This document shows positions 1-42,531 of a stretch of DNA of 64,000 nucleotides, piece after piece. The notes under the pieces are model-generated. The model was not told the origin of the DNA, ran no database searches, and saw only the letters and a list, made by a program, of their open reading frames with translations. The DNA comes from an uncultured Pelagibacteraceae bacterium (GTDB lineage: Bacteria > Pseudomonadota > Alphaproteobacteria > Pelagibacterales > AG-422-B15): contig CACCAS010000006.1 of the NCBI GenBank assembly GCA_902544065.1, positions 1 through 64,000 on the forward strand. Direction: 5' to 3'. The number at the start of each line of letters is the position of its first letter. The first letter of the stretch is position 1. The translations under genes and the position numbers were made by a program.

Positions 1-1143
1 TATTTGTTTAAATACAAACAATCCCCTCTCGTCACAAGCTATACTGTCTCCCGTTGATAAATAACTTATAGAGGACACTCTTATTCTTTTATTTAAATAG
101 GATTTTCTTTTAAAAAAATTATTTGTGAATAATTTAATATTCTCATAATTTACGGTGCTAGGATTTAATTCGTTAGAAATTGCAGCAACTTTTAATGATT
201 GATATTCAAGCGGATCGCTATTTGAGCTTAAGTTTATTTTATTAGAAATATAGCCTTCTCTGATAGCTGTGTATGAAATAACTACTTGCTTAGCAGAGGC
301 CTTATTTATTATTTCCATCGCGACCTTGGCTGCGTATCGTATAAATGGTGTTTTATCTTTTGTAATTAATGAATATTGTTGCAAATCCTTTTTTTTAAAA
401 TTTGAAACTTCTTCAAGCATTGATACAAAGTTGTCAAAATCAGGTTTGAAATGATGAATGACTTTGAGAGGATAGCTGTACTTATCAAAATATAATTTAA
501 CTAAAGCTCTCCACGTGCCGCCTGTAAGGATTACCCTTTTAAACTTATTTTCATTAAGCCATTCAGTATGCCGTAGAGAGTTTTTGAATTTTTCTATTAT
601 TTTTTTATTTTTAGTTTTTGCTCTGTGAACACCTAGAGGCAAAGACAATGTATTCATTATTTCTTTCTTTTTAACTTCTGCGAGTTCTAAGCTGCCACCG
701 CCAAGATCGGCAACGAGACCACTTGATTTTTTTAGGCCAACAATACACCCCATGGCAGAAAATTTTGCTTCTTCATCGCCAGTTAATACATGTATTTTCT
801 TTTTAAAAATATTTTCTACATCAGCAACAAATGATTCTCTATTTTCAGCAACACGGACAGCTTCTGTTGCAAAAATTTCAAAATTTTTAATATTTGATGA
901 GTCTATCAATTCCTTTATATAATAGAACGCATTCATTGCTCTTTTTATAGAGTCTTTATTAAGCTTATTGTTTTTAATTAGATCTTTACCTAACCCACAT
1001 GAAATTTTTTTATTAAAAATAGCTATCTGATTATACCTAAAGTTTTCAAAAATTTGAAAACGAACTGTATCAGAGCCAATATCGATTATTGCAATACGTT
1101 CGTCTTTAAAAAATAATTTTTTTTTGGGAATTAAATTATTCAT
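1..1143 (-). CDS. ppx: Exopolyphosphatase / guanosine pentaphosphate phosphatase (Ppx/GppA), 3' end cut by window edge
   Basis: Reading the minus strand from the ATG at 1141-1143 gives an open frame of 381 codons to base 1 with no stop, so the C-terminus lies outside the window. The product begins MNNLIPKKK and shows the actin-like ATPase fold signatures of Ppx/GppA: AIIDIGSDTVRF near residue 20, ATEAVR, VADLGGGSLEL and LTGGTWRAL. The family hydrolyses inorganic polyphosphate from chain ends (or pppGpp) in the cytoplasm. The start overlaps the ppk1 stop by 8 bases, so the two are very probably co-transcribed as ppk1-ppx. Typical length is about 300-510 residues, so roughly a quarter may be missing if it is the long form. 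Confidence 0.9.
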   Translation of the reverse strand, partial: MNNLIPKKKLFFKDERIAIIDIGSDTVRFQIFENFRYNQIAIFNKKISCGLGKDLIKNNKLNKDSIKRAMNAFYYIKELIDSSNIKNFEIFATEAVRVAENRESFVADVENIFKKKIHVLTGDEEAKFSAMGCIVGLKKSSGLVADLGGGSLELAEVKKKEIMNTLSLPLGVHRAKTKNKKIIEKFKNSLRHTEWLNENKFKRVILTGGTWRALVKLYFDKYSYPLKVIHHFKPDFDNFVSMLEEVSNFKKKDLQQYSLITKDKTPFIRYAAKVAMEIINKASAKQVVISYTAIREGYISNKINLSSNSDPLEYQSLKVAAISNELNPSTVNYENIKLFTNNFFKRKSYLNKRIRVSSISYLSTGDSIACDERGLFVFKQI

Positions 1144-3265
1144 AACGCATCAGAGAGAGTAGTTTCTTCGGCTTTCTATTTCCTTTTAATTTTCCTCTAC
1201 CTGATAAACTTGGATTTGACATGAAGTATTTATGTGCATTAAACGTCTTACCTTTTTGTTTAACTCTTTTGTATGTGCCATCATCGTTCATCATCCACGT
1301 TTGCTCATTGTCTAGAAAATTGGCAACCATTATTTGATTCAGTATTTGTTCATGGACAGTGGAGTTCTTTATGGGGGTTAATATTTCAACTCTTCTATCC
1401 AGATTTCTAGGCATAAGATCAGCTGATCCAATTAAAACGGTGTTATTTTTTGATGGTATATTAGATTCGTTTGCAAAACAGAAGATTCTAGCATGCTCCA
1501 AATACCGGCCAATGATACTTTTAACAACAATATTTTCAGAAAGTTTTTTAACTCCTGGTCTTAAGCAGCAAATTCCTCTAATGAATAATTCAATTTTTAC
1601 TCCCGCTGCAGAAGCCTCATAAAGCTTGGAGATCATTTGAGGGTCAACCAAAGAGTTCATTTTAAGCCAGATACCAGATGGTTTACTTTTCTTTGCATTT
1701 TTAATTTCATTATCAATCATTGCATTAATTTGATTTCGCATTGCGGGTGGAGAGAGCACTATATCATTTAATTTCATTGGAGAAGCATACCCAGTCATGT
1801 AATTAAAGATTCTCTCAATGTCTTTGCAGATTTTTTCATCTGCCGTAAATAATGACAGGTCTTCATAAGTTTTAGCATTTTTTGGATGATAGTTTCCTGT
1901 GCCTACATGTACATAGCTTTTTAATTTGCCTGCTTCTCTTCTGATAATTAGACTTGCCTTTGCATGCGTCTTCAATTGAGCGAAACCATATACAATTTGA
2001 ACTCCTGATTTCTCCATTTGATTGGCAAGAGCTAAATTAGATTCCTCATCAAATCTTGCTTTGATTTCAACAACAGCTGTAACACTCTTGCCGTTATCTG
2101 CTGCTTTTGTAAGGGCTTTTATAATAGGACTATCAGCAGTGGTTCTGTAAATCGTTTGTTTAATAGCTACTACTTTTGGATCTATAGCAGCCTGATTTAA
2201 ATAATCAACTACAACATCAAAAGTTTCATATGGATGATGGACAACAAAATCTTTTGATCTGATGGCAGCAAAACAATTATTATCAAATTGCTTTAACCTT
2301 TCAACAGGTCTTGATATGAATTTTTTAAATTTTAATTTTGGTCTATTTAAATTATGAATCTGCGATAAATCTTGTAAACCAACATGCTTTGATAGAGCAA
2401 TGACTTGCGCATCTTTAAGATTCAAATTTTTTTTTAAAAAGTTTTTCTTTTTAGATGATATGTTTTTTAAAATTTCTAGCCTTACTATTTCCCCTCTTTT
2501 TCTTTTTGTTAAAGCTTTTTCAAAATATTTAATAACATCTTCATCATCCTCATATTCGTAATCGATATCACTGTCTCTTATGACTCTGAATATTGCACTA
2601 TCCAACAATTTAGAATTTGGGAATAGATCTTTAAAAAAATATCTAATAATATCTTCAACAAATAAATAGTATTCTTTTTTACCTTCTTGAATAAACACAA
2701 GTCTGTTTAATGCTCGCGGAACAATGATTACCGAATTAAACGGTTTATTTGAACCTCCTGCCACTAAACTCAATGAAATACACAGTCCTTCATTTGGAAT
2801 AAATGGAAATGGATGCACTGGGTCAATTGAAATTGGCGTTAATATAGGCAGTATTTCTTCATTAAAAAGTTTCTTTAGATTTTTTCTCAATCTTATATTT
2901 AATTTATTAGGCGTAATATGAATTATTTTTTCTGCATTTAATTCTCTAACAAGCTTTCTAAAAGAAACATCCTGATTCTTAAATATTTTTGCAGATGCAT
3001 TTTGTGCTGCTTTTAATTGCTGATGTCCAGTCATGCCGTCATGGCTTATTTTGTTTGGATTATTTTCTATTTCATCCAAAAGACTTGGTATTCTTACCAT
3101 ATAAAATTCGTCCAGATTACTTGCAGAAATTGAGAGAAAATTAACTCTTTCGATTAACGGCACTTTAGCATCATTAGCCTCATCTAAAACTCTTTGGTTA
3201 AAAAGAAGCCATGATAATTCTCTGTTTAAGAACTTATTGTCTGAATTTGTATTTTTTCTTATCAT
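1136..3265 (-). CDS. ppk1: Polyphosphate kinase 1
   Basis: PPK1 reversibly transfers the ATP gamma phosphate onto polyphosphate. The 709-residue product has the family's length and order: an N-terminal helical domain beginning NKFLNRELSWLLFNQRVL, a head domain, and two phospholipase-D-like catalytic domains. LKTHAKASLIIRR contains the expected phosphorylated histidine and YVHVGTGNYHPKNAK follows. I start at ATG 3263-3265 (MIRKNTNSDNKFLNREL), because the 36 extra upstream codons of the open frame run through the oppositely transcribed sixA and do not resemble the family. The stop overlaps the ppx start. Together with ppx, sixA, plcP and agt this makes a phosphorus-metabolism neighbourhood. Confidence 0.95.
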   Translation of the reverse strand: MIRKNTNSDNKFLNRELSWLLFNQRVLDEANDAKVPLIERVNFLSISASNLDEFYMVRIPSLLDEIENNPNKISHDGMTGHQQLKAAQNASAKIFKNQDVSFRKLVRELNAEKIIHITPNKLNIRLRKNLKKLFNEEILPILTPISIDPVHPFPFIPNEGLCISLSLVAGGSNKPFNSVIIVPRALNRLVFIQEGKKEYYLFVEDIIRYFFKDLFPNSKLLDSAIFRVIRDSDIDYEYEDDEDVIKYFEKALTKRKRGEIVRLEILKNISSKKKNFLKKNLNLKDAQVIALSKHVGLQDLSQIHNLNRPKLKFKKFISRPVERLKQFDNNCFAAIRSKDFVVHHPYETFDVVVDYLNQAAIDPKVVAIKQTIYRTTADSPIIKALTKAADNGKSVTAVVEIKARFDEESNLALANQMEKSGVQIVYGFAQLKTHAKASLIIRREAGKLKSYVHVGTGNYHPKNAKTYEDLSLFTADEKICKDIERIFNYMTGYASPMKLNDIVLSPPAMRNQINAMIDNEIKNAKKSKPSGIWLKMNSLVDPQMISKLYEASAAGVKIELFIRGICCLRPGVKKLSENIVVKSIIGRYLEHARIFCFANESNIPSKNNTVLIGSADLMPRNLDRRVEILTPIKNSTVHEQILNQIMVANFLDNEQTWMMNDDGTYKRVKQKGKTFNAHKYFMSNPSLSGRGKLKGNRKPKKLLSLMRYE

Positions 3266-3275
3266 TATTAAAGTG

Positions 3276-3791
3276 ATGAAGCATTTATATCTATTGAGAC
3301 ACGCTAAATCAAGTTGGGATGATCCTAGTTTAACTGATTTTGAGAGACCTCTTTCAAAAAGAGGAAAAAACAATTGTAATAAAATTGAAACATTTCTTTC
3401 ACAAAAAAAAATAATACCTGATATTTCCTATGTTTCATCTGCAAGAAGAACTGTCGACACATTTAATTTAGTTCTTGGTAAAACACTAAGGACAAGCTCG
3501 AAGGTTGTTTTTAGCAAGAAATTATATTTATGTGACGAAATCTATCTTTTTGACTTAATCAAAAACACTGAAAATAATTATTCAAATCTTTTAATTGTTA
3601 ATCATGAACCAACAATTCGAAATTTAACAATTGATTTAAGTGCGCCCTCTCAAGATGAGAAATATTTAAATATTAAAAATAAATTTCCTACAGGAAGTCT
3701 TGCAATACTCAAATCTGATTTAAAAGATTGGAGTGAATTAAAATATAATTCATTTAAAGTTACAGATTTTGTTCGACCTAGATTCTTATAG
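3276..3791 (+). CDS. sixA: Phosphohistidine phosphatase SixA-like (histidine phosphatase family)
   Basis: The 171-residue protein starts MKHLYLLRHAKSSWDD, which contains the RHG/RHA catalytic motif of the histidine phosphatase superfamily in the short form typical of SixA; FERPLSKRGKNN and LIVNHEPTIRNL (second catalytic His) follow. SixA removes phosphate from phosphohistidine on phosphotransfer proteins; the substrate here is unknown. The ATG at 3276 was chosen because homology begins there, and the 13 upstream codons would overlap ppk1. Only 10 bases separate its start from the divergent ppk1 start, which leaves no room for a conventional promoter or leader between them. Confidence 0.85.
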   Translation: MKHLYLLRHAKSSWDDPSLTDFERPLSKRGKNNCNKIETFLSQKKIIPDISYVSSARRTVDTFNLVLGKTLRTSSKVVFSKKLYLCDEIYLFDLIKNTENNYSNLLIVNHEPTIRNLTIDLSAPSQDEKYLNIKNKFPTGSLAILKSDLKDWSELKYNSFKVTDFVRPRFL

Positions 3792-3938
3792 ATTATATTG
3801 ATGCAGCGTAATCAATTATGCTATTTTGAATTTTTATTAATACATCGTTATCGGAGGTTGATTTTATCCAATTATTATTTTTTATTTAAAATTTATTAAG
3901 ATGAATACTGTATAAAAAAATTTTTTTTCGAAGTGTTG

Positions 3939-4946
3939 TTATTTTGCAACGCGTGATACAGTTTGATGTGACAAAAACAGCTTAGAAACCTCCTGCCAAT
4001 CAAACTTTTTACTATAATTTATACAATCTGTACGACTCACTTTTCTCGCCTTATCAATTGAATTAATTAAATTATGATCAAGACAATTATGTTTAAAATT
4101 ATCAAAAACATCAATTGGACCTGGAACAGGATATGCGGCCACAGGAAGTCCACTGGCGAGAGCCTCGATCATGACCATTCCAAACGTATCTGTTTTACTT
4201 GGAAATACAAAGATATCTGAAGATGCATAGCACTGGGCCAGTTCATTTCCTTTCTTCGCTCCTACAAAAACTGCATCAGTATATTTTTTTTCTAATTTTT
4301 TCTTAGAGGGTCCATCACCTACAAGTAGTTTTGTGCCTTTTAAATTTAATTTAAGAAAATCTTCTAATGATTTTTCCTTAGATATTCTTCCTACATATAA
4401 ATAAATTGGTTTTTCTAAATTGAGATCAATCTTGTTCTTCGGATTAAAAGCTTTTATATCAACGCCCCTGGACCATTTAACTGTCCTTTTAATTCCATGT
4501 GAATTAAGTTCATCTATAATTGAATTAGAGGATACCATTACTGCGCTAGAATTTTTGTGAAACCATTTCAAAATTTTATATGTAAAAGATACAGGTATCT
4601 TAGCCATCGTGTTTATATATTCAGGAAATTTTGTACAATACGAGGTTGTAAACGCATAATTATTCTTTGAACAATAATTCCTAACCGCTAAGCCAATAGG
4701 TCCCTCTGTAGCAACGTGTATAAAGTCAGGCTTAAACTTCTCAATGATCACGCCAATTTTGAACCAATGATTAATCGCAAGTTTTATTTCAGGATAAATA
4801 ATCAGTGGAATTGTAATAAATTTATCTGGAGTTATGTACCTAACCTCATGTCCTTGACTTGTAAGTTCATCACCAAGTGTTTGATAAGTTCTAACAACAC
4901 CATTTATTTGAGGGAGCCATGCGTCTGATGCGATGAGTATTTTCAA
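3939..4946 (-). CDS. agt: GT4-family glycosyltransferase, probable Agt-type glycolipid synthase
   Basis: The 335-residue product has the GT-B fold pattern of family GT4: N-terminal MKILIASDAWLPQINGVVRT, FIHVATEGPIGLAVR, then the nucleotide-sugar site YLYVGRISKEKS, LVGDGPSKKKL and PSKTDTFGMVMIEALASGLP. It starts with TTG directly after the plcP stop (zero spacing), so translation is probably coupled. In SAR11 and Agrobacterium the glycosyltransferase beside plcP (Agt) attaches hexose or glucuronic acid to diacylglycerol, making glycolipids that replace phospholipids under phosphate limitation. That role rests on family plus neighbour. A mannosyltransferase acting on another lipid is the main alternative. 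Confidence 0.8.
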   Translation of the reverse strand: MKILIASDAWLPQINGVVRTYQTLGDELTSQGHEVRYITPDKFITIPLIIYPEIKLAINHWFKIGVIIEKFKPDFIHVATEGPIGLAVRNYCSKNNYAFTTSYCTKFPEYINTMAKIPVSFTYKILKWFHKNSSAVMVSSNSIIDELNSHGIKRTVKWSRGVDIKAFNPKNKIDLNLEKPIYLYVGRISKEKSLEDFLKLNLKGTKLLVGDGPSKKKLEKKYTDAVFVGAKKGNELAQCYASSDIFVFPSKTDTFGMVMIEALASGLPVAAYPVPGPIDVFDNFKHNCLDHNLINSIDKARKVSRTDCINYSKKFDWQEVSKLFLSHQTVSRVAK

Positions 4947-5765
4947 TTAACTTAATACCTTTACGGAGTCCTTATGTTTGTTGATAATTTCATACTTTTC
5001 AGCGATATCTTTCCAGAAAAGAATTTCCATTGATCCATCAAAATTTTCTATCATAAAGGAGCAACTTTCTACCCAGTCCCCATCATTATAGTAATGAACT
5101 CCATTTATTATTCGATGTGAAGCATGGTGAATATGTCCGCAAATAACTCCTTTTAGATTTTTCTTTTTTGCATAACCTGCAACTATTTCTTCGTACTTAT
5201 TAATGTAAGAAACAGCATTTTTTACTTTTAATTTTAGATACTTTGAAAGCGACCAATATTTCAAACCCAATAATAATCTTAATTGATTAAATCTTCTATT
5301 TAGCCATAAAGCTAAATCGTATGCGCTAGCGCCAAGATGGGCTAACCAGGGTGCGATATTGATAATTGAGTCAAATTTGTCTCCATGCAGTATAAGATAT
5401 TCAGATCCATCTACTGTCTTATGTTTGATTTCATTAACTACTCTAATTTCGCCTAGTGTTATTGGCACAAATTTTCTAACAAGCTCATCATGATTTCCTG
5501 ATACATAAAACACTTTAGTTCCATGTCGTGCTTTTCTTAGAATTTTTTGTATTACATCACTGTGACTTTGTGGCCAGTACCATCTATTTTTAAGTCGCCA
5601 CCCATCTATAATATCTCCAACTAAGTATAGGTAATCTGATCTGGTATTTTTTAAAAAATCAAGCAACTGTTCAGCTTGACAGCCTTTTGACCCTAAATGA
5701 ATATCTGAAATAAATATGGAACGATATTTTAAGAGAGGAATAACATTATTTTTTTCGTTGACCAT
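4947..5765 (-). CDS. plcP: Metallophosphoesterase of the PlcP / LpxH-like family, probable phospholipase C
   Basis: This 272-residue calcineurin-like phosphoesterase carries the metal ligands in order: FISDIHLGSKGCQAEQ, YLVGDIIDGWRLKNRWYWPQ, VSGNHDE, LILHGDKFD and VICGHIHHA. Annotation pipelines often call the family UDP-2,3-diacylglucosamine diphosphatase (LpxH-like). The GCQAE and WYWPQSHSDV stretches resemble the alphaproteobacterial PlcP group, which releases diacylglycerol from phospholipids under phosphate starvation. It is followed without a gap by a GT4 glycosyltransferase, the arrangement known for plcP-agt. A Pho-box-like sequence lies about 80 bases upstream. The lipid A alternative (LpxH/LpxI) is less likely given the partner gene. 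Confidence 0.8.
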   Translation of the reverse strand: MVNEKNNVIPLLKYRSIFISDIHLGSKGCQAEQLLDFLKNTRSDYLYLVGDIIDGWRLKNRWYWPQSHSDVIQKILRKARHGTKVFYVSGNHDELVRKFVPITLGEIRVVNEIKHKTVDGSEYLILHGDKFDSIINIAPWLAHLGASAYDLALWLNRRFNQLRLLLGLKYWSLSKYLKLKVKNAVSYINKYEEIVAGYAKKKNLKGVICGHIHHASHRIINGVHYYNDGDWVESCSFMIENFDGSMEILFWKDIAEKYEIINKHKDSVKVLS

Positions 5766-13705: not shown

Positions 13706-14131
13706 TTATGACCAGAGAACGTTTGAACCGATGCGTTGACCAGATCTAGTATAAACAACTAGGGTTCCAAGCCAAACAAGGCCTTGCATAACTAATGGCG
13801 CTGAAATCCCACCACCACCTTCTTGTGTCATCGTAATCCAGAGCGCTCTCAAGAACAATAAGGCTGTAAGAGTTACCATAACTCTATAGTAAACTGCGCA
13901 TTCTTGAGGAGTTGCTAGCAATGCAAATATATTTCCTATGGCAAGAGCTAAATAAATAGTTCCAATTAATCCCATCCAGAAATAGCCAGCTTGACCTTGT
14001 TCTAGTCCACCTGATCGATCAACAAAGGCTTCCGCATTCATCGGGTTTAAAAACATAAAGCTATACGTTAAAGCAACAAAAGCTACTAAACTTAGTATAA
14101 CTACCGTAGGCGTATCATTATTTTTTATCAT
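13706..14131 (-). CDS. Four-segment membrane protein, unknown
   Basis: A 141-residue protein with four hydrophobic segments (about residues 8-28, 48-70, 82-100, 108-126), no recognised family. Loops include DRSGGLEQGQAGYFWMG and TQEGGGGIS. It follows the 271-residue membrane gene at 14142 by 10 bases, in the same direction. Spacing of segments is similar to each half of that protein, suggesting a one-unit relative of a two-unit protein; this is by eye only. Operon with 14142 likely. Confidence 0.7.
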   Translation of the reverse strand: MIKNNDTPTVVILSLVAFVALTYSFMFLNPMNAEAFVDRSGGLEQGQAGYFWMGLIGTIYLALAIGNIFALLATPQECAVYYRVMVTLTALLFLRALWITMTQEGGGGISAPLVMQGLVWLGTLVVYTRSGQRIGSNVLWS

Positions 14132-14141
14132 TATGTATCTC

Positions 14142-14957
14142 CTATGCTTTGCTTTGATTTCTAAAGAACAATATCACCGATCCAACAAAGAAAGTGGTGA
14201 TAAACAACCCTAAAAGAGAATTCCCATCATCGCCGCTGAAATTATTTCTTATCATAAAGTTTAACATGCCAACAAACATTAATGTAGATTGCATTAACCC
14301 TACAACGATCATAGTCATGCTGTAACCTGCTCTCATTTGATACAAGAGAGTAAGAACCCACGATAAAGATATAAACATCATGGCCATTGAAAAGTATTGA
14401 GCCTCAGCGGACATAATTAAAAAAGGTGAATCTTCTATTAATCCTTCTGGTCTTATAAAATAAATAACTACATTAAATGCGTTGCCTATAAGACCGAGAA
14501 ACAGAAGAACTTTAGTTACCATATCATCAGTTCCAAAATAACTATCTGCTTTTGGAATATCGAATGGGTTTCTTGGCAATCCTGATCGTGCACGTGCAAT
14601 AATTAAACCGAGCAGACCAATGGAAACCATAATAATACCCGCATAATTTCCGCTATTTTGAGCTGGTGTTATATTCCAATAAATACCAAAAGCTAAAAAA
14701 GGAACAGCAAATGCAAAGAATGCCCTGTCTAAGCCTTTATACCCCATATATATAATGCCTGTAATCATTCCGGCATTGGCTACTCCAAACCAAAATAAAA
14801 ACACTTTGAGAGTGTCTATGTCAGGATTTGTAGTAGGATCATCGTATCGCATAAGCAATACGTCTGGATCAAAAATCATCATCGCGGCATACATGAAAGC
14901 AATAAAAAAACTTACTCCCATTGCAATATCGACAATGCGGTCATCAGTCTTAAACAT
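14142..14957 (-). CDS. Eight-segment membrane protein, unknown
   Basis: A 271-residue integral membrane protein with roughly eight hydrophobic segments arranged as two sets of four, separated by the polar stretch LPRNPFDIPKADSYFGTDDM. No family recognised. A strong Shine-Dalgarno sequence (AAAGGGGAAATTT) precedes the ATG, so expression may be high. It is divergent from livH across a 162-base AT-rich gap and upstream of the smaller membrane gene at 13706. No conserved charged transport motif was identified. Confidence 0.7.
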   Translation of the reverse strand: MFKTDDRIVDIAMGVSFFIAFMYAAMMIFDPDVLLMRYDDPTTNPDIDTLKVFLFWFGVANAGMITGIIYMGYKGLDRAFFAFAVPFLAFGIYWNITPAQNSGNYAGIIMVSIGLLGLIIARARSGLPRNPFDIPKADSYFGTDDMVTKVLLFLGLIGNAFNVVIYFIRPEGLIEDSPFLIMSAEAQYFSMAMMFISLSWVLTLLYQMRAGYSMTMIVVGLMQSTLMFVGMLNFMIRNNFSGDDGNSLLGLFITTFFVGSVILFFRNQSKA

Positions 14958-30696: not shown

Positions 30697-32520
30697 TCAA
30701 GCAGATTGATACATTTGATCAATTACAGAACTGTACTTATCATTAATGAATTTGCGTTTTAATTTCATTGTTGGCGTAAGCTCATCATCCTCAGCTGTTA
30801 GCTGGGTATCAATAAGTGAGAATTTCTTGATCTGCTCTACATTGGCAAATTTTTTATTCACTGAAGATACTTCATTATCAATGAGTTCAACAATATCCTT
30901 TGATTTACATAAACTTTCAAAGTTTGAAAAAGGAATATCATTATCTTGAGCATGCTTAACTACATTCTCTTCATCGATCATGATTAAGCAAGATAGGAAT
31001 TTTCTTTTATCACCTATTACAACTGCATCTGAAATAAAAGGGCTGAACTTTAATTGGTTTTCAAGTTCAGAAGGTGAAATATTTTTTCCACCCGCAGTTA
31101 TGATTATATCTTTTTTCCTGTCAGTTATTTTGAGATAACCATAATTATCAATTTCACCAACGTCTCCTGTATGCAGCCATCCATCGGATAACGTTTCGCT
31201 AGTTTGTTCTGGTTTATTTAAGTATCCGTGAAATACGCCGGGACCCTTAAATAAAATTTCACCATCTTTTGCAATCCTTACTTCAGAGCCATTTACTGCT
31301 CTACCAACAAAGCCAACTTTAATCTGCCTATCATAAAAAATAGTTCCAAGTCCTGCAGTTTCAGTCATGCCCCACCCTTCTCTTAGATCAATGCCTAATG
31401 ACAAGTACCAACTAATTAAATCTGGCGAGATAGGTGCGGCGCCACTAAAAGCAAATCTGCAGTCGTTTAAACCTAATAATTTTTTAATATTTTTTAAAAC
31501 AAACTGGTTGCATATAAAGAACGATAAACTTAAGAACAATGGAGGCTTTTCTCCATTTAATAAATAATCTTTATGACGACTTCCTACTTTAATAGATAAC
31601 TCATAAAATAATTTTCCAAAATAGGTGGCATCTTTCATCAATATGATAATCGAGGAATAAAATTTCTCCCAAATTCTTGGAACTGCAATAAACACCGCTG
31701 GCGATACTTCACGTATATTTTCTGGAACTGTTTCTATGCTCTCGGCAAAATTTACAACAGACCCATATAGCAGAGGGCCCATTACCGAAACTGATCTTTC
31801 TAAAATATGGCAAAGAGGTAAAAATGATAGTTGGTTTTCACCTTCAGCTGTTCCAAAGACTTCCTTAGAGGCTCTAATATTGTAAAGAATATTTTGATTT
31901 GAAATCATGGCGCCCTTTGGTGGACCTGTAGTACCTGATGTGTAAACTAATATTGCAATGTCTTCAGGCTCAACCTGGTTCATGAGATCAGTCCACAGAT
32001 CAGGTTTTTTTGCGTGTAATTCCGCTCCAATACTTATGAAATCATCATAACTCATGACTTGTGAGTCAGTAAAGTTATGCAACCCCTCCATATCGTAAAC
32101 AATAATTTTTTCAAGCGTTGGGCACTCAGACCGAACCTCTAAAATTTTGTCTAGCTGTTCTTCATTTTCGGCAAAATAAAATTTTGTTTTGGAGTCATTG
32201 ACTAAGTATTTTATCTGCGCCGCTGAATCAGTTGTATAGACTCCGCTTGATATGCCACCAGATCCGATAGCTCCCATATCTGTATAAAGCCATTCAGGAT
32301 TACCCTCACTCGCAATAGATACTACTTCCCCTTTTTTCAATCCGAGAGAGTGCAAAGCAAGTCCCGTATTTCGGGCTTGTAATCCATACTTTTCCCAAGA
32401 AATAGTCTGCCAAATACCTAAATCTTTTTCTCGCATCGCCGTTTTTTGGTGACGCCTCTTTACAGAGTCCCAAAATAATTGCGGTATGGTTTCTATCTCC
32501 ACATTTTTTTCTTTTTCCAA
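30697..32520 (-). CDS. AMP-dependent acyl-CoA synthetase (long-chain FadD-like)
   Basis: The 607-residue ANL enzyme has the P-loop VYTSGTTGPPKGAM, GWGMTETAGLGT, HTGDVGEIDNYGYLKITDRK and DIIITAGGKNISPSE. It activates carboxylic acids to acyl-CoA using ATP. It starts inside livF by 28 bases, so it is coupled with the transporter ATPase. FadD-type synthetases embedded in Liv-like transporter operons are known in alphaproteobacteria and usually imply that the imported ligand is a carboxylic acid activated on entry. Confidence 0.93.
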   Translation of the reverse strand: MEKEKNVEIETIPQLFWDSVKRRHQKTAMREKDLGIWQTISWEKYGLQARNTGLALHSLGLKKGEVVSIASEGNPEWLYTDMGAIGSGGISSGVYTTDSAAQIKYLVNDSKTKFYFAENEEQLDKILEVRSECPTLEKIIVYDMEGLHNFTDSQVMSYDDFISIGAELHAKKPDLWTDLMNQVEPEDIAILVYTSGTTGPPKGAMISNQNILYNIRASKEVFGTAEGENQLSFLPLCHILERSVSVMGPLLYGSVVNFAESIETVPENIREVSPAVFIAVPRIWEKFYSSIIILMKDATYFGKLFYELSIKVGSRHKDYLLNGEKPPLFLSLSFFICNQFVLKNIKKLLGLNDCRFAFSGAAPISPDLISWYLSLGIDLREGWGMTETAGLGTIFYDRQIKVGFVGRAVNGSEVRIAKDGEILFKGPGVFHGYLNKPEQTSETLSDGWLHTGDVGEIDNYGYLKITDRKKDIIITAGGKNISPSELENQLKFSPFISDAVVIGDKRKFLSCLIMIDEENVVKHAQDNDIPFSNFESLCKSKDIVELIDNEVSSVNKKFANVEQIKKFSLIDTQLTAEDDELTPTMKLKRKFINDKYSSVIDQMYQSA

Positions 32521-35997: not shown

Positions 35998-36023
35998 AGA
36001 TATAAAAAATTGATGATGAACAG

Positions 36024-36974
36024 TTAAACTATTACTGATTTTAGTAAAGAGATATATCCATCTTTTATTTCAATTTCTTGCTTATGTCCCTTTTTAAGAA
36101 GCAACTTATGAGCCTCCTTTAGTTTATAGCAGGGAACAAACATAAGTAAGTGATGTTCTAGGTGATAATTTACATAATATGGCGCAACAAATGTCCTTTC
36201 TAGAAAATTTGCATACGTAGTTCTGGCGTTGTTAAAATCATTACAGTCATCTTTTACTCCAGCATGTTCAGCTATGTTTCGAATACGTAAAAAAAGTTGA
36301 AAGAATGTTAACAAGGGAAGAAGCCAAAACGCAAAATAATACCACCACTGACCAACAACACTAAAAGATATAAAAATAATTAAATTTGAAATGAGTATCC
36401 CAAAAAGTACATTCTTAGACTGAAATCCAGTAATTTTTTTCCCATCATCCTTTTTTGTGTCGTTTGTTAATAGTGTTTTAAAAATTAATTCATATCGCTG
36501 AACAAGACCAGATATCCCAAAAATGTCTCTGAGTATTTTTCTAACAAAACTAAATTTGTTAACTGGGAATGGCTTTGACAAACTCAAATCAGGATCATCA
36601 GGAGTTTGTGTGTGTCGATGATGAGCTAAATGATAATGTCTATAGCCGTATGTATCTGACCATACAGGAAAAGCACAAATCCACTGGGATAGAACGTTAT
36701 TATTTTTCGTATTGTTAACTATTAATCCATGTGCACCCTCATGCATTAAAATTGCAAGACCTAATTGCCTTCCAGCAATGACGATAACAGCGGCAATAAA
36801 TGTGAAGGGGTTTGGAACAAGTGTATAAACGATAATAGAAGCAAATATAACAATCCATGCGTGCAGCAGTAAACCGATACCTTTAATATCTTTTTTTTCT
36901 CTTAAATACGAAATTTCACTTTCAGATAAAATTTGATTTGGCTTAATAGTTGGTGTTAAAGTTTTACTCATCAT
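36024..36974 (-). CDS. Membrane fatty acid desaturase family protein
   Basis: A 316-residue integral membrane di-iron protein with the three His boxes: LMHEGAHGL, HLAHHRHTQTPDDPDL and HLEHHLLMFVPCY. Four or more hydrophobic segments surround them. The family includes acyl-lipid desaturases and carotenoid hydroxylases/ketolases; the first is more likely given length and box spacing. Start may be the first or second Met. Together with cfa at 38663 it suggests acyl-chain modification of membrane lipids. Confidence 0.85.
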   Translation of the reverse strand: MMSKTLTPTIKPNQILSESEISYLREKKDIKGIGLLLHAWIVIFASIIVYTLVPNPFTFIAAVIVIAGRQLGLAILMHEGAHGLIVNNTKNNNVLSQWICAFPVWSDTYGYRHYHLAHHRHTQTPDDPDLSLSKPFPVNKFSFVRKILRDIFGISGLVQRYELIFKTLLTNDTKKDDGKKITGFQSKNVLFGILISNLIIFISFSVVGQWWYYFAFWLLPLLTFFQLFLRIRNIAEHAGVKDDCNDFNNARTTYANFLERTFVAPYYVNYHLEHHLLMFVPCYKLKEAHKLLLKKGHKQEIEIKDGYISLLKSVIV

Positions 36975-37154
36975 TAATATTATATAAGAAGATATATAAG
37001 ATTTTTAATATTAATTTTATAATTAAAATAATTATTCAATATATTCAGTAGTTTAATAAATTTTATTCAAATAAATGTAAAGTTTAATACTAATAACTAT
37101 CCTGGTTTAAAAGTTCATATCAAATACAATTTTTCTAAAAAAAAGGATCACATT

Positions 37155-37874
37155 ATGAAGAAAACAGTCGTTAAATTAACAACATTAATAACCTTATTCA
37201 TATTCAGTATAAGTACAAGTCATGCTTTGGTATTGGATTTGTATGCTGTATCTGGAGTGAACACTCCAGAGAAGAGAGCTGGAATGATAGAGGGATTTGA
37301 AAATTTCAAAAATCTTGCAGAAAATGGTGGAGCTAGCTGGATAGATTTTACTCTTAGCATGAAAATAAAAGGTGACGGGTATAATGAAACTTTACTCTTC
37401 GCTGCAGTTTATGAAAATAATAGTGAAATGATGAAAACGAATGCTTTATTTGCAACTAATCAGCCTTGGTTTGATAATAATTTTAATATCGAGACAGATC
37501 AAGTTGTTAACGCAGTTTTTCAAACTCCTCCAGGTGTTGAAGTTGATTATGACGGAGCAGAGGTTGGTAACACACTCTGGTATGGACTAATTAATGTCAC
37601 AGACTTCCTGAACTTCGTGAATAGATTTCCACAAATGCCAGATAAAATGGCTGAGAGCGGAATAGAAGGTCAACTTGGATTAGTAAGCTGTTCTATTTGC
37701 CCTGCATCTATGGGAGAAACTACACACATGATGTTTTTAAGCAATGATACCCTTGAGGATATGGGCAGTGATTTAGATAGTTTTGACTTTGCTATGCAAA
37801 GGTGGTTTTACAGCAATATAAGACCATTCGTTGAGCAAGTTGATACTGGCATGAATATGGTTATAGCTAACTAG
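37155..37874 (+). CDS. Exported protein, tandem paralogue 1, unknown family
   Basis: The 239-residue protein has a signal peptide (residues 1-25, ending STSHA). No family recognised. It is homologous to the next gene over its full length: a GGA motif then SMKxxGD, AxYEN-MM, WF, VGNT--Y, N-F--FP, CSICPASMG, W-Y-N-RPF and VD-G. The pattern (two repeats of a MM--A--A-N--WF helix and a beta sheet) resembles a two-domain ferredoxin-like / dimeric alpha-beta barrel. Two cysteines in CSIC could hold a disulfide, metal or haem. Good SD (AAAAAGGATCACATT) before the ATG. Confidence 0.75.
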   Translation: MKKTVVKLTTLITLFIFSISTSHALVLDLYAVSGVNTPEKRAGMIEGFENFKNLAENGGASWIDFTLSMKIKGDGYNETLLFAAVYENNSEMMKTNALFATNQPWFDNNFNIETDQVVNAVFQTPPGVEVDYDGAEVGNTLWYGLINVTDFLNFVNRFPQMPDKMAESGIEGQLGLVSCSICPASMGETTHMMFLSNDTLEDMGSDLDSFDFAMQRWFYSNIRPFVEQVDTGMNMVIAN

Positions 37875-37909
37875 TAAGTTAAATTTTTTAAATCATAAAG
37901 GAGAAAAAT

Positions 37910-38623
37910 ATGAATTTTTTTAAAGTAATCTTTATTGCAATATCATTTTTAATTTTTTCATCAATATCATCAAAAGCATATGTTTTTGATACTTGGACAG
38001 TTGAGGGTGTAACGAGCCCAGCAGACTTAGCACAGGCAACTATAGCATTTAAAGAAAAAGCAATGGCTGGTGGGGCTAAGTATGCAAACATAAGGGCTTC
38101 AATGAAAGTTCGAGGTGATCGTTCAAATGATACAGGTTTTGTGATTGCAACATATGAAAATTATGAGGACATGATGGAAACTGCAGCTATCGTTGCACAA
38201 AATCCAAGTTGGTTTGCTTCAACTTATGGCGCCATTGAAGTACAAGGTACAATGATAACATCGGCAACTTACGGAAATAATCAACCTTTAAATAACAATA
38301 CTGAGGGAGTAGGAAATACTGTTGGATATAACATTGTTGAAGTTTTAGATGGTGTTAATTTTATATTGAATTTTCCAAAATTTCAAAAGTTGATGGCAGA
38401 TCTTGGCGCTCCAGCGGCATTTGATTACGCTTTCTGTTCAACTTGTGGAGCTGAGATAAGACCAGGTGAGGCTGTAATATGGGGAGCTTCTGCAACTATG
38501 GAAGATGCCGGTAAAACAATGGAGATCTTTGCGTCACAAGAGGCTCAATCATGGATTTATAGAAATATGCGCCCGTTCTTAAATATAGTTGATAGCGGGG
38601 TACATACCTACCTTACAGAATAA
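37910..38623 (+). CDS. Exported protein, tandem paralogue 2, unknown family
   Basis: A 237-residue exported protein with a signal peptide (residues 1-23, ending SSKAY), paralogous to the gene 36 bases upstream. Conserved with it are GGAKYANIRASMKVRGD, ATYENYEDMMETAAIVAQ, WFASTYG, GVGNTVGYNI, LNFPKFQKLMADLG, FCSTCGAEIRPGE and RNMRPFLNIVD. The CSTC motif matches CSIC in paralogue 1, and is the only conserved cysteine pair. Excellent SD (AAAGGAGAAAAAT). The two genes are probably one operon. The function is unknown. Confidence 0.75.
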   Translation: MNFFKVIFIAISFLIFSSISSKAYVFDTWTVEGVTSPADLAQATIAFKEKAMAGGAKYANIRASMKVRGDRSNDTGFVIATYENYEDMMETAAIVAQNPSWFASTYGAIEVQGTMITSATYGNNQPLNNNTEGVGNTVGYNIVEVLDGVNFILNFPKFQKLMADLGAPAAFDYAFCSTCGAEIRPGEAVIWGASATMEDAGKTMEIFASQEAQSWIYRNMRPFLNIVDSGVHTYLTE

Positions 38624-38636
38624 TTATTAAGATACT

Positions 38637-38656
38637 CCCGCGCTAGCGTGCGCGGG
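38637..38656. terminator. GC-rich hairpin between convergent genes
   Basis: CCCGCGC (38637-38643) and GCGCGGG (38650-38656) form a 7-bp all-GC stem with a 6-base loop, placed between convergent genes ending at 38623 and 38663. No T-run follows on either strand, so it is not a standard intrinsic terminator, though its position fits a bidirectional stop or mRNA 3' end stabiliser. Confidence 0.5.
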
Positions 38657-38662
38657 GGCAAA

Positions 38663-39850
38663 CTAATTTGTAAGCATGTAGTCTCTTTTATCAGGGAGTG
38701 TCTTTTTATTTTTAGATAATTGTAATTGATATACAACTAATCCAGACTCTTCAAAAGATGCTTGAGAACACGAGAGATAAAAATCCCACATACGGCAAAA
38801 TTTTTCGTCATATAGCTCTTTTACTTTATCTATATTGTCATAGAAATTGTAACGCCAACGCTTCAGCGTTTCTGCGTAATGGAATCTTAGTACTTGAACA
38901 TCAGCTAAAGCTAATCCAGATTTTTCTACGCGAGTCATTGTTTCGCTCAATGCAGGGATATATCCACCAGGAAAAATATATTTTTCAATCCAGGGGTCAT
39001 TATTTGTAGGTTCTGTGAGTCTCCCAATAGTATGAATTAGGGCAACTCCAGTATCATTAAGTAAATCATAAACTTTATTAAAGAATTCTTGATAATGTGC
39101 AGTCCCAACATGCTCAAACATGCCAACAGATACAATCCTATCATAAGTCTCATTAACGTTACGATAGTCTTGCAACCTGTATTCAACTTTATCCAACTTT
39201 TCAGTAATTTTTCTCTGTTTTGCATAAGCAATTTGTTCTTCTGATAAAGTCACTCCGACGACATTGACATTTGATTTTTTATATATATGAGCAGCCATTC
39301 CACCCCATCCGCATCCAATGTCTAAAACTGATTGCCCTTCTTCCAAAAGTAATTTCTTAGAGATTAACTCCTTTTTATTAATCTGAGCCTGTTCCAATGT
39401 ATCATTTGGTGAATTAAAATATGCACAAGAATATTGTCTATCGGGATCTAGAAATAATTCATACAATTTATCAGATAAGTCATAATGATGAGCAACATTA
39501 TGTTTTGACTTAGTGATGTAGTTACTTGTTCTGATTTTGTTTTGTATTATCCTAACGATTTTAGATAATTTCATGACCCAATGGTCAATCTCACTACTAG
39601 TATTCAAGAAAATAAGTTTTAGAAAATCATGTATTCGACCTTCTTCAACAATCATTGAGCCATCCATATAACTTTCACCAAAATGAACAGAGGGATTAAT
39701 AAGAAGCCTTAGTTCAGAAAAACTATTTGTTGTGCGAATACGTATTGGTTCTCCTGAACCATCACCGTATGTGTTTAATTCACCATTAGGACTAATCCAG
39801 GTTAAGTTGCCGACCTTAATGATTTTTCCAAGAAGACTTTTTGTAATCAT
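38663..39850 (-). CDS. cfa: Cyclopropane-fatty-acyl-phospholipid synthase
   Basis: The 395-residue SAM-dependent methyltransferase has SKHNVAHHYDLSDKLYELFL, YSCAYFNSPNDTLEQAQ, VLDIGCGWGGMAAHI (SAM motif I), VTLSEEQIAYAKQR and GMFEHVGTAHYQEFF, the canonical Cfa signatures. It adds a methylene bridge to double bonds of membrane phospholipid acyl chains. The N-terminal about 120 residues form the typical lipid-binding domain. It lies near a membrane desaturase, so the two could act in sequence. No neighbouring operon partner. Confidence 0.94.
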   Translation of the reverse strand: MITKSLLGKIIKVGNLTWISPNGELNTYGDGSGEPIRIRTTNSFSELRLLINPSVHFGESYMDGSMIVEEGRIHDFLKLIFLNTSSEIDHWVMKLSKIVRIIQNKIRTSNYITKSKHNVAHHYDLSDKLYELFLDPDRQYSCAYFNSPNDTLEQAQINKKELISKKLLLEEGQSVLDIGCGWGGMAAHIYKKSNVNVVGVTLSEEQIAYAKQRKITEKLDKVEYRLQDYRNVNETYDRIVSVGMFEHVGTAHYQEFFNKVYDLLNDTGVALIHTIGRLTEPTNNDPWIEKYIFPGGYIPALSETMTRVEKSGLALADVQVLRFHYAETLKRWRYNFYDNIDKVKELYDEKFCRMWDFYLSCSQASFEESGLVVYQLQLSKNKKTLPDKRDYMLTN

Positions 39851-41889: not shown

Positions 41890-42531
41890 CTATCCTATCA
41901 TGGTTGAAGAGCGCATTATAATTTGTTGCTCCATTGTAGCAGTGACTGGTTGCTTGAAATAAAATTTTTCATTCTCTTCTTTCCAGCCATCAAAAGCCTT
42001 ACCCATATCGTCGAAATTTTCAAAGCCCATTGTATAGGCCATCATGCCAGTGTAGCGTTGACTAGCATTAACTTGCCACAACCTGACTTGAGCTCCGTGC
42101 TTTTCTTGAAATTCTTTTGCAGTCTGGCACGACTGAACAAACTTAGCCATGTTACCTTGATGTTGGATTAACTTATACATAACAATGACAGTTACATTAC
42201 CAATTAATCCAGCTCCCTTTTCGAAACCTTTCATTTCTACCATTTCCATTGTATCAATAATTCGTCCAGATCCAGATGCTACAGTTTTCGCATACCATGC
42301 CTGTAATTCAGGATCACTAATCAGCTTTTCCTGTGCTGCGCCATAATCTGAATAATTATCAAACATTGACACTGTATAAACCTCAATGTCTTGAGTGCCT
42401 GAGTGACTAACTCTTACTCCAGTTGGTATACCTTTATCATTCATTAATTTAATACCTTCTTTTGAGAGGGAAATAAATTCCATCTCTTTACCTGGTATTG
42501 CTGTTGAAACTTGACTTCTCGCGATTGCCAT
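41890..42531 (-). CDS. Two-domain dimeric alpha-beta barrel (ABM/NIPSNAP-like) protein
   Basis: A 213-residue cytosolic protein that seems to be an internal duplication: MFDNYSDYGAAQEKLISDPE with LQAWYAK in half 1, and MGFENFDDMGKAFDGWKEEN with EKFYFK in half 2. These are the helix-2 regions of small ferredoxin-like ABM/NIPSNAP-type domains. Such proteins serve as monooxygenases, stress proteins or ligand binders. A strong SD (TAAGGAGATTTTTT) precedes the ATG. The layout recalls the exported paralogues at 37155 and 37910. Role unknown. Confidence 0.7.
   Translation of the reverse strand: MAIARSQVSTAIPGKEMEFISLSKEGIKLMNDKGIPTGVRVSHSGTQDIEVYTVSMFDNYSDYGAAQEKLISDPELQAWYAKTVASGSGRIIDTMEMVEMKGFEKGAGLIGNVTVIVMYKLIQHQGNMAKFVQSCQTAKEFQEKHGAQVRLWQVNASQRYTGMMAYTMGFENFDDMGKAFDGWKEENEKFYFKQPVTATMEQQIIMRSSTMIG

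Follow-up and report, generated by a model that had tools for sequence, protein, structure and literature searches.

Introduction

SAR11-type bacteria are among the most abundant marine cells, and what maintains their coexisting genotypes is an open question. Among the closest described systems are the replacement flexible genomic islands of aquatic prokaryotes, which have been reported to be swapped by homologous recombination and to show substitution peaks at their boundaries (PMC4033161). Wide recombination has been described for SAR11 (PMC7542561), and for the O-chain clusters of Pelagibacterales a long-term preservation of types has been reported, with an arms race judged unlikely and density-dependent selection discussed (PMC11898729). 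As far as these accounts go, the published variable loci of this group are mostly sugar or nutrient islands (PMC11898729, PMC10734472).

Here, we describe a site of one or two genes in an uncultured Pelagibacteraceae bacterium. The window, i.e., the whole stretch of DNA that has been analysed, comprises 64,000 nucleotides. A sequence-only reading of it had pointed to two paralogues with a shared CSxC motif and had regarded them as exported relatives of dimeric alpha-beta barrel proteins. Its observation as a whole has been confirmed, and its interpretation has been partly supported.

Two Paralogues Between a Desaturase and Cfa

The two ORFs, A and B, begin and end exactly where they had been placed before, and the flanking genes are indeed a desaturase and Cfa (Table 1). 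A and B are separated by 35 bases and lie on the plus strand, both flanking genes on the minus strand. With an identity of ~32% (33% over 225 residues, E 1e-33, in a search of the own genome of 1.26 Mb and 18 contigs), their homology is far above chance, as expected from the proposed paralogy, and no third homologue has been found in this genome up to E 10. The strong ribosome-binding sites noted earlier correspond to a purine-rich AGGA-type site ahead of each ORF. Both proteins start with an n-h-c signal peptide, and the export signals extend to the family, in which position -1 is Ala in 41/41 and position -3 Ser in 38/41 members. Upstream of the first gene, a region with a TACAAT-like element shows partial conservation across 25 loci that differ in their alleles (8 A-first, 17 B-first) and may constitute the promoter, and the hairpin that follows B is a candidate terminator.

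Table 1. Features of the A/B site and of its borders (positions in the window).
Feature	Position	Strand	Remarks
Left flank: fatty-acid desaturase	36024..36974	-	PF00487, E 1e-35
5' end of desaturase gene: raised-divergence shoulder, cassette edge	36800..36974	-	
Upstream region, putative promoter: TTTAATACTAATAACTATC element and TACAAT (-10-like)	37083..37130	+	Alignment of 25 upstream regions, consensus 70-90%
ORF A, predicted exported two-domain dimeric alpha-beta-barrel protein	37155..37874	+	239 aa
Signal peptide of A (predicted), ~24 aa, ...STSHA/LVLD	37155..37226	+	-3/-1 positions conserved
CxxC of A = CSIC, residues 179-182	37689..37700	+	
ORF B, paralogue of A, commoner of the two	37910..38623	+	237 aa
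Signal peptide of B (predicted), ~23 aa, ...SSKA/YVFD	37910..37978	+	-3/-1 positions conserved
CxxC of B = CSTC, residues 176-179, end of strand 2 in domain 2	38435..38446	+	
Hairpin between B and Cfa, putative terminator	38637..38656	.	8 B-Cfa spacers, by eye; sequence varies with B type
Right flank: Cfa-type cyclopropane-fatty-acid synthase (methyltransferase)	38663..39850	-	PF02353, E 5e-92

Spread and Conserved Core of the Family

Family members have been found in 33 of 297 genomes of the order, which are a sample of a larger group. Within the genus of the host, 30 of 43 genomes carry a member, and so do 3 of 10 from other genera of its family-level group; among the 297 genomes, the family is found only in this group. 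Profile searches of 385 genomes of the class and 398 of the phylum have each returned a single match, the host's own genome, and a scan of GTDB contigs has confirmed 27 of 80 candidate stretches, corresponding to 26 loci, all of them from Pelagibacteraceae. The 33 positive genomes have at most two family genes each, and every such pair consists of an A and a B.

The mature part of 41 proteins (13 A and 28 B; G100 and G050 left out, and the family alignment cleared of duplicates and of L002, which repeats the window) contains exactly two cysteines, arranged as CxxC followed by P or G. In A and B these are the cysteines of CSIC and CSTC, which had already been recognised as the sole pair. Conservation in homologues, proposed as a check, holds for the cysteine pair in 41/41, but the motif is CxxC(P/G), with CSxC in just 9/41. 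Similarly, the body-plan motifs are all present in both A and B, although one of them, N-RPF, occurs in only 16/41 family members. Together with the CxxC pair, 18 other columns are invariant in the 41 sequences, resulting in a core of 20 (B numbering: A23, D27, G33, A51, G55, A56, K66, G69, D70, Y82, N98, G135, G166, C176, C179, G201, W215, N219, D228, and G230). No column of this alignment is occupied by His in at least 90% of the sequences.

A and B have no significant match in Pfam, NCBIfam, or PADLOC (nothing below E 0.001), and 21 family members (alignment A1) have returned nothing below E 0.001 in Pfam or PHROGs, the best sub-threshold matches of single members being DUF1804 (E 0.0017) and one PHROG (0.0027). 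Zn-ribbon matches to B (E 0.06-0.23) span just ~13 residues at the CxxC knuckle and have been dismissed. By sequence, the PDB has yielded nothing convincing with B alone or with the family profile, and no viral or phage homologue has been found with B, with alignment A1, or by tblastn of phage records with B. A fold search of viral models has given one good match, an antibiotic-biosynthesis-monooxygenase-like Hyperionvirus protein (TM 0.59, E 1e-7), and poorer ones. In the literature on the clade, on 2PGC, on SAR11 barrels, and on allelic or balancing selection in Pelagibacterales/SAR11, as partly judged by titles, the A/B family has not been found. A and B thus represent a family of predicted exported proteins without a Pfam or NCBIfam match, and with no characterised family found, the earlier statement that they belong to no recognised family stands.

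Fold and Structural Relatives

AlphaFold2 models, based on 26 and 27 aligned sequences for B and A, have reached a pLDDT of 85.8 and a pTM of 0.77 for B and 88.9 and 0.80 for A. In both models, a signal helix is followed by two beta-alpha-beta-beta-alpha-alpha-beta domains, and the CxxC is placed at the end of strand 2 in domain 2 or immediately after it. The two beta-alpha-beta-beta-alpha-beta repeats of a two-domain dimeric alpha-beta barrel are seen in the models and in the structural matches, and the exported barrel that had been proposed is thus the fold predicted by confident models and strong matches. The nearest solved structure is 2PGC, a marine metagenome protein (JCVI_PEP_1096685590403) with no function given, which shares the two-domain fold (Foldseek E 5e-12; Z 19.1 over 198 residues at 3.0 A for B, Z 18.4 over 196 residues at 3.0 A for A). 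Despite this strong fold match, 2PGC is only 11-12% identical to A and B and gives no profile match up to E 10.

The next-best fold is that of sulfur oxygenase reductase (SOR, Z 15-16 over ~205 residues), for which iron ligands His86, His90, and Glu114, an essential Cys31, and a CxxC-spaced pair Cys101/Cys104 have been described (PMC7398979). In contrast, A and B have no conserved His and consequently neither a His86/His90 iron site nor a 2-His-1-Glu arrangement; the mature proteins hold the CxxC pair only (41/41), with no third cysteine matching Cys31, and they are ~70 residues shorter and predicted to be exported. Without a conserved His and with only two cysteines, A/B is not a SOR, though SOR-like in build. 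Several uncharacterised or putative monooxygenases are found among the other structural matches. The chlorite dismutase/HemQ superfamily, in which the proximal haem ligand is a histidine, has a two-domain dimeric alpha-beta barrel as well (Z 9-11 to A/B), but A and B have no conserved histidine that is able to take this role.

NIPSNAP (PF07978) and antibiotic biosynthesis monooxygenase-type domains belong to the same fold class. PF07978 is absent up to E 1 from A, B, and the 21 members of A1. The window also contains a NIPSNAP-like two-domain neighbour of 213 aa, by eye without signal peptide (41890-42531, minus strand; PF07978 E 4e-4, below the curated cutoff), whose gene is present in 3/5 near-window loci and in G039 (L107) and in 0/15 clade-2 loci, some of which are short; as a sequence relative of A/B it is unsupported (hhalign E 0.012, probability 4%). 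G039 further encodes, between LivF and AtuA, a 197-aa ORF with a signal-peptide-like start (L107:431-1021) that is unmatched among the window ORFs.

Small ligands are bound or converted by some proteins of related fold (SOR, PenE, HemQ), and in A and B invariant polar strand residues stand beside variable ones. Both features would fit ligand specialisation, in which the types would differ in the small compound, hydrophobic or sulfur-containing, that they bind, and the alleles would track nutrient or chemical niches. As different types occur in genomes with closely similar flanks, we regard this as a tentative explanation.

Hypervariability of the Site

Close relatives differ widely in what they carry here, a point that the sequence-only reading could not have seen. 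Where desaturase and Cfa flank the site on a single contig (31 genomes), both A and B are present in 10 genomes, B alone in 15, A alone in 3, and no family gene in 3. Remnants of B have been detected in the A-Cfa spacer of two A-only genomes (the 3' end of the gene in G023, its two ends in G089), where B has therefore been lost by deletion, and since some cells have lost B or the whole pair, the job is dispensable. With regard to linked genes, which had been named as a further check, adjacency to desaturase and Cfa is common; however, it is positional only, since other contexts and empty sites exist. B is located between a glutaredoxin gene and a gene read by eye as rpsD in a related genus (L103), and it is not followed by Cfa in another one (L032). 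Because of these contexts and the three desaturase-Cfa sites without A/B, a lipid-enzyme partnership as a general rule has been rejected.

At an identity cut of 60% with single linkage, the sequences fall into 5 B types and 2 A types, and cells with closely similar flanks can carry B proteins that are only 40-55% identical. The median pairwise identities of A/B are 55.9/65.7% in 15 clade-2 loci and 55.8/46.4% in 5 clade-1 loci plus the window (A being present in 4 and 3 loci of these groups), whereas the other genes of the 22 syntenic ones have medians of at least 84.5%, except for two substrate-binding protein genes with 69-74% in clade 1; 6 of the 26 loci L032-L057 are unused in this per-gene table. 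Of the 105 clade-2 pairs, 12 combine a Cfa identity of at least 97% with B below 55%, while B is at least 90% identical in 10 and 55-90% identical in 53. Compared with G010, B (42%) and A (66%) rank third and fourth lowest of 88 reciprocal best hits with a median of 95.7%, a comparison that covers 77 kb of the window's contig and the initial 20 kb of a second one. Between G027 and G021, B (55%) is the fourth lowest of 215 (median 98.1%), and the three genes below it are all located in one ~40-kb block (~105-146 kb), outside of which B is the lowest gene.

A single-cell chimera as the source of this variability has been discarded, as the same junctions recur in many separate assemblies. One 3.1-kb contig of G050 (L030/L052), in which the LivF frame is joined in frame to mature B (L052:235-1470), is probably an amplification chimera; it has been cut to the last 240 residues for the alignment and kept out of trees and pair counts.

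The pattern of presence and absence may also be viewed in terms of biotic recognition, in which phage, bacteriocins, or contact-dependent toxins target the proteins or are blocked by them, so that rare types are favoured, old alleles are kept, and deletions can pay. The predicted export of the proteins, the different alleles in cells with closely similar flanks, the 3/31 sites with neither gene, and the B deletion remnants in 2/3 A-only genomes are all consistent with it; furthermore, changed phage sensitivity has been proposed as the reward for replacement islands (PMC4033161), and density-dependent negative selection by phage has been discussed for Pelagibacterales O-chain diversity (PMC11898729). 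On the other hand, a soluble periplasmic barrel is no obvious surface receptor, no defence model (A, B, PADLOC) and no phage record (B) has been matched, amino-acid change within types is not in excess, and O-chain cluster swapping in the same order has been judged too slow for an arms race (PMC11898729). We thus consider biotic recognition possible, at about the same likelihood as ligand specialisation.

Exchange and Selection

Divergence of B relative to its neighbours differs strongly between pairs of genomes. In G019/G014 (L042/L055), 11 other genes have a pS of 0.11-0.36 and a pN of 0-0.03, and the Cfa protein is identical, while B shows 0.64/0.331. The opposite has been observed for G081/G031 (L054/L047), which belong to different clades: here, ten other genes have a pS of 0.66-0.78, and B shows 0.39/0.034. 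B can therefore be far older or clearly younger than its neighbours, and B alleles have been exchanged in both directions. The two genes are shuffled independently of each other, as is seen in G081, where a window-like A (90%) stands beside a B resembling the one in G031.

The trees agree with this. In the Cfa tree, nine near-window rows form one group with G061 (support 91/93), whereas in the B tree the six near-window rows that have B fall into four places, and a single clade of near-window B is rejected (AU p 4e-59, 6 vs 21 rows). The near-window group had been set by a Cfa identity of at least 91% before the B tree was built, with G061 (no B on the contig) and G050 left out, and the B tree excludes G100 (a fragment) and G053 (partial Cfa). 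The window B is joined first by those of G008/G018 (87-88% identical), two genomes with a Cfa that shares only 87% identity with the window's, and then by the B of another genus, g3 (96/92), while the B of g2 groups with another B type (100/99). Divergences and trees together show the exchange itself, which would have proceeded by homologous recombination.

The edges of the exchanged segment are visible in four near relatives: identity begins to fall within roughly the initial 170 bases of the desaturase gene, reaches its minimum in B wherever A and B are both comparable, and recovers close to the 3' end of Cfa. Nucleotide identity of the desaturase gene over 4 loci is 50-81% in bins 36800 and 36900, compared to 74-98% in bins 36000-36700, and its pS is raised in some pairs.

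Without any exchange, an ancestral multi-gene array with lineage-specific loss could leave ancient paralogues behind. A and B are old paralogues in tandem in 10/31 sites, and B types seem to predate the genus split, as the groupings of the g3 and g2 B suggest. However, the B of G081/G031 is much younger than the 10 other genes, which requires transfer, and the 33 genomes never hold more than two family genes, pairs being one A and one B. An array of this kind is therefore distinctly improbable.

In 9/11 B pairs, dN/dS is 0.04-0.09 (G031/G049 0.18, G014/G063 0.17), and in 4/6 A pairs it is 0.03-0.11, one further pair having 0.25 and one being saturated; since synonymous sites are near saturation in many pairs, these ratios are rough. 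The mostly low values identify A and B as working genes that are not decaying and show purifying selection on them in most close pairs. They also bear on the idea of weakly constrained, fast-evolving genes in a highly recombining genome without any special selection, which is in line with heavy SAR11 recombination (PMC7542561) and with a ~40-kb block that is divergent elsewhere, but conflicts with the low dN/dS of those nine B pairs and with the 20 invariant columns. Moreover, the pN of 0.38-0.41 between the window B and the B of three near relatives exceeds that of other genes (A apart) between the two clades, 0.04-0.19, and we consider weak constraint unlikely.

Exchange Elsewhere in These Genomes

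The divergent ~40-kb block between G027 and G021 indicates that exchange is not confined to the A/B site. It is located on G027 contig 2 (L127-L129) and is probably a large recombinant tract; of the 30 reciprocal best hits with the lowest identity to G021, 25 lie in it (48-79%). A second variable site within the window comprises two genes read by eye as a membrane protein pair without Pfam match (13709-14131 and 14145-14957, both on the minus strand), which are 30 and 38% identical to their G010 counterparts, the lowest two of the 88 reciprocal best hits, and look replaced; in G027/G021, too, genes that start like this pair have comparatively low identities (69 and 74%). A long-chain acyl-CoA ligase-like gene (by eye; 30697-32520, minus strand) has a pS of 0.68-0.71 to three near relatives, compared to 0.07-0.31 for the adjoining LivF, and looks like a replaced allele, too.

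At positions 1-5765, the window encodes a polyphosphate kinase, a SixA-like phosphatase, a glycosyltransferase, and an LpxH-like hydrolase (by eye) with no match on G010 contig 2, a gene list that resembles the phosphate-related island described for HIMB59 (PMC10734472). G027 contig 2 (L124-L125) carries at ~41-63 kb a run of pilin-like ORFs together with by-eye type IV pilus genes, which has no match on G021 contig 2 and could have a bearing on DNA uptake.

A Fixed Core With Exchangeable Alleles

With somewhat better than even confidence, we regard A and B as periplasmic barrels that bind a ligand or act through thiols, and that combine a fixed core with old alleles maintained over time and traded by homologous recombination. 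According to signal peptides and models, both proteins would be exported by Sec, cleaved by signal peptidase I, and released as soluble periplasmic barrels. The fixed residues D27, K66, D70, Y82, N98, W215, N219, and D228 (B numbering) and the CxxC point to one conserved job. Most likely, the barrel holds a small ligand, and the two cysteines of the CxxC would serve as a thiol pair that is redox-active or binds a metal. The remainder of the protein would exist as several old allelic types, possibly older than the genera that carry them, which may move between lineages as whole coding units through recombination in the conserved flanks, B being sometimes lost by deletion, as its remnants suggest.

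The persistence of old types under purifying selection together with their reshuffling suggests negative frequency-dependent or niche-dependent selection, which might act on the exposed surface or on the pocket and be exerted by, for example, phage, a toxin, or a ligand that varies. In our preferred reading, the function, a small-ligand or thiol one, would be conserved, and variation would be advantageous in an exposed part of the protein; as the driver, ligand specialisation has about the same likelihood as recognition by phage or toxin. A stronger version, in which the site resembles an MHC-like recognition locus, i.e., one exported barrel protein with several ancient allelic types older than the carrier genera, swapped cassette-wise between species because common types are selected against by something outside the cell (a phage, a toxin, or a neighbour), appears doubtful to us.

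Comparison With Known Systems

The variety at the A/B site suggests that something outside the cell may favour it, and the site bears on the question of how so many SAR11-type genotypes can coexist. With the same fold, a similar upstream region, a fixed CxxC core, and deeply different alleles, it offers a small testable handle. Like the replacement flexible genomic islands, it presents alternative versions at the same site in related strains and a substitution peak at a boundary, the 5' end of the desaturase gene; the difference is that such islands are described as gene clusters with different genes (PMC4033161), whereas the A/B site holds one or two homologous genes. Compared to the O-chain clusters, the site is smaller, with one or two genes, and a single fold and its core are retained throughout.
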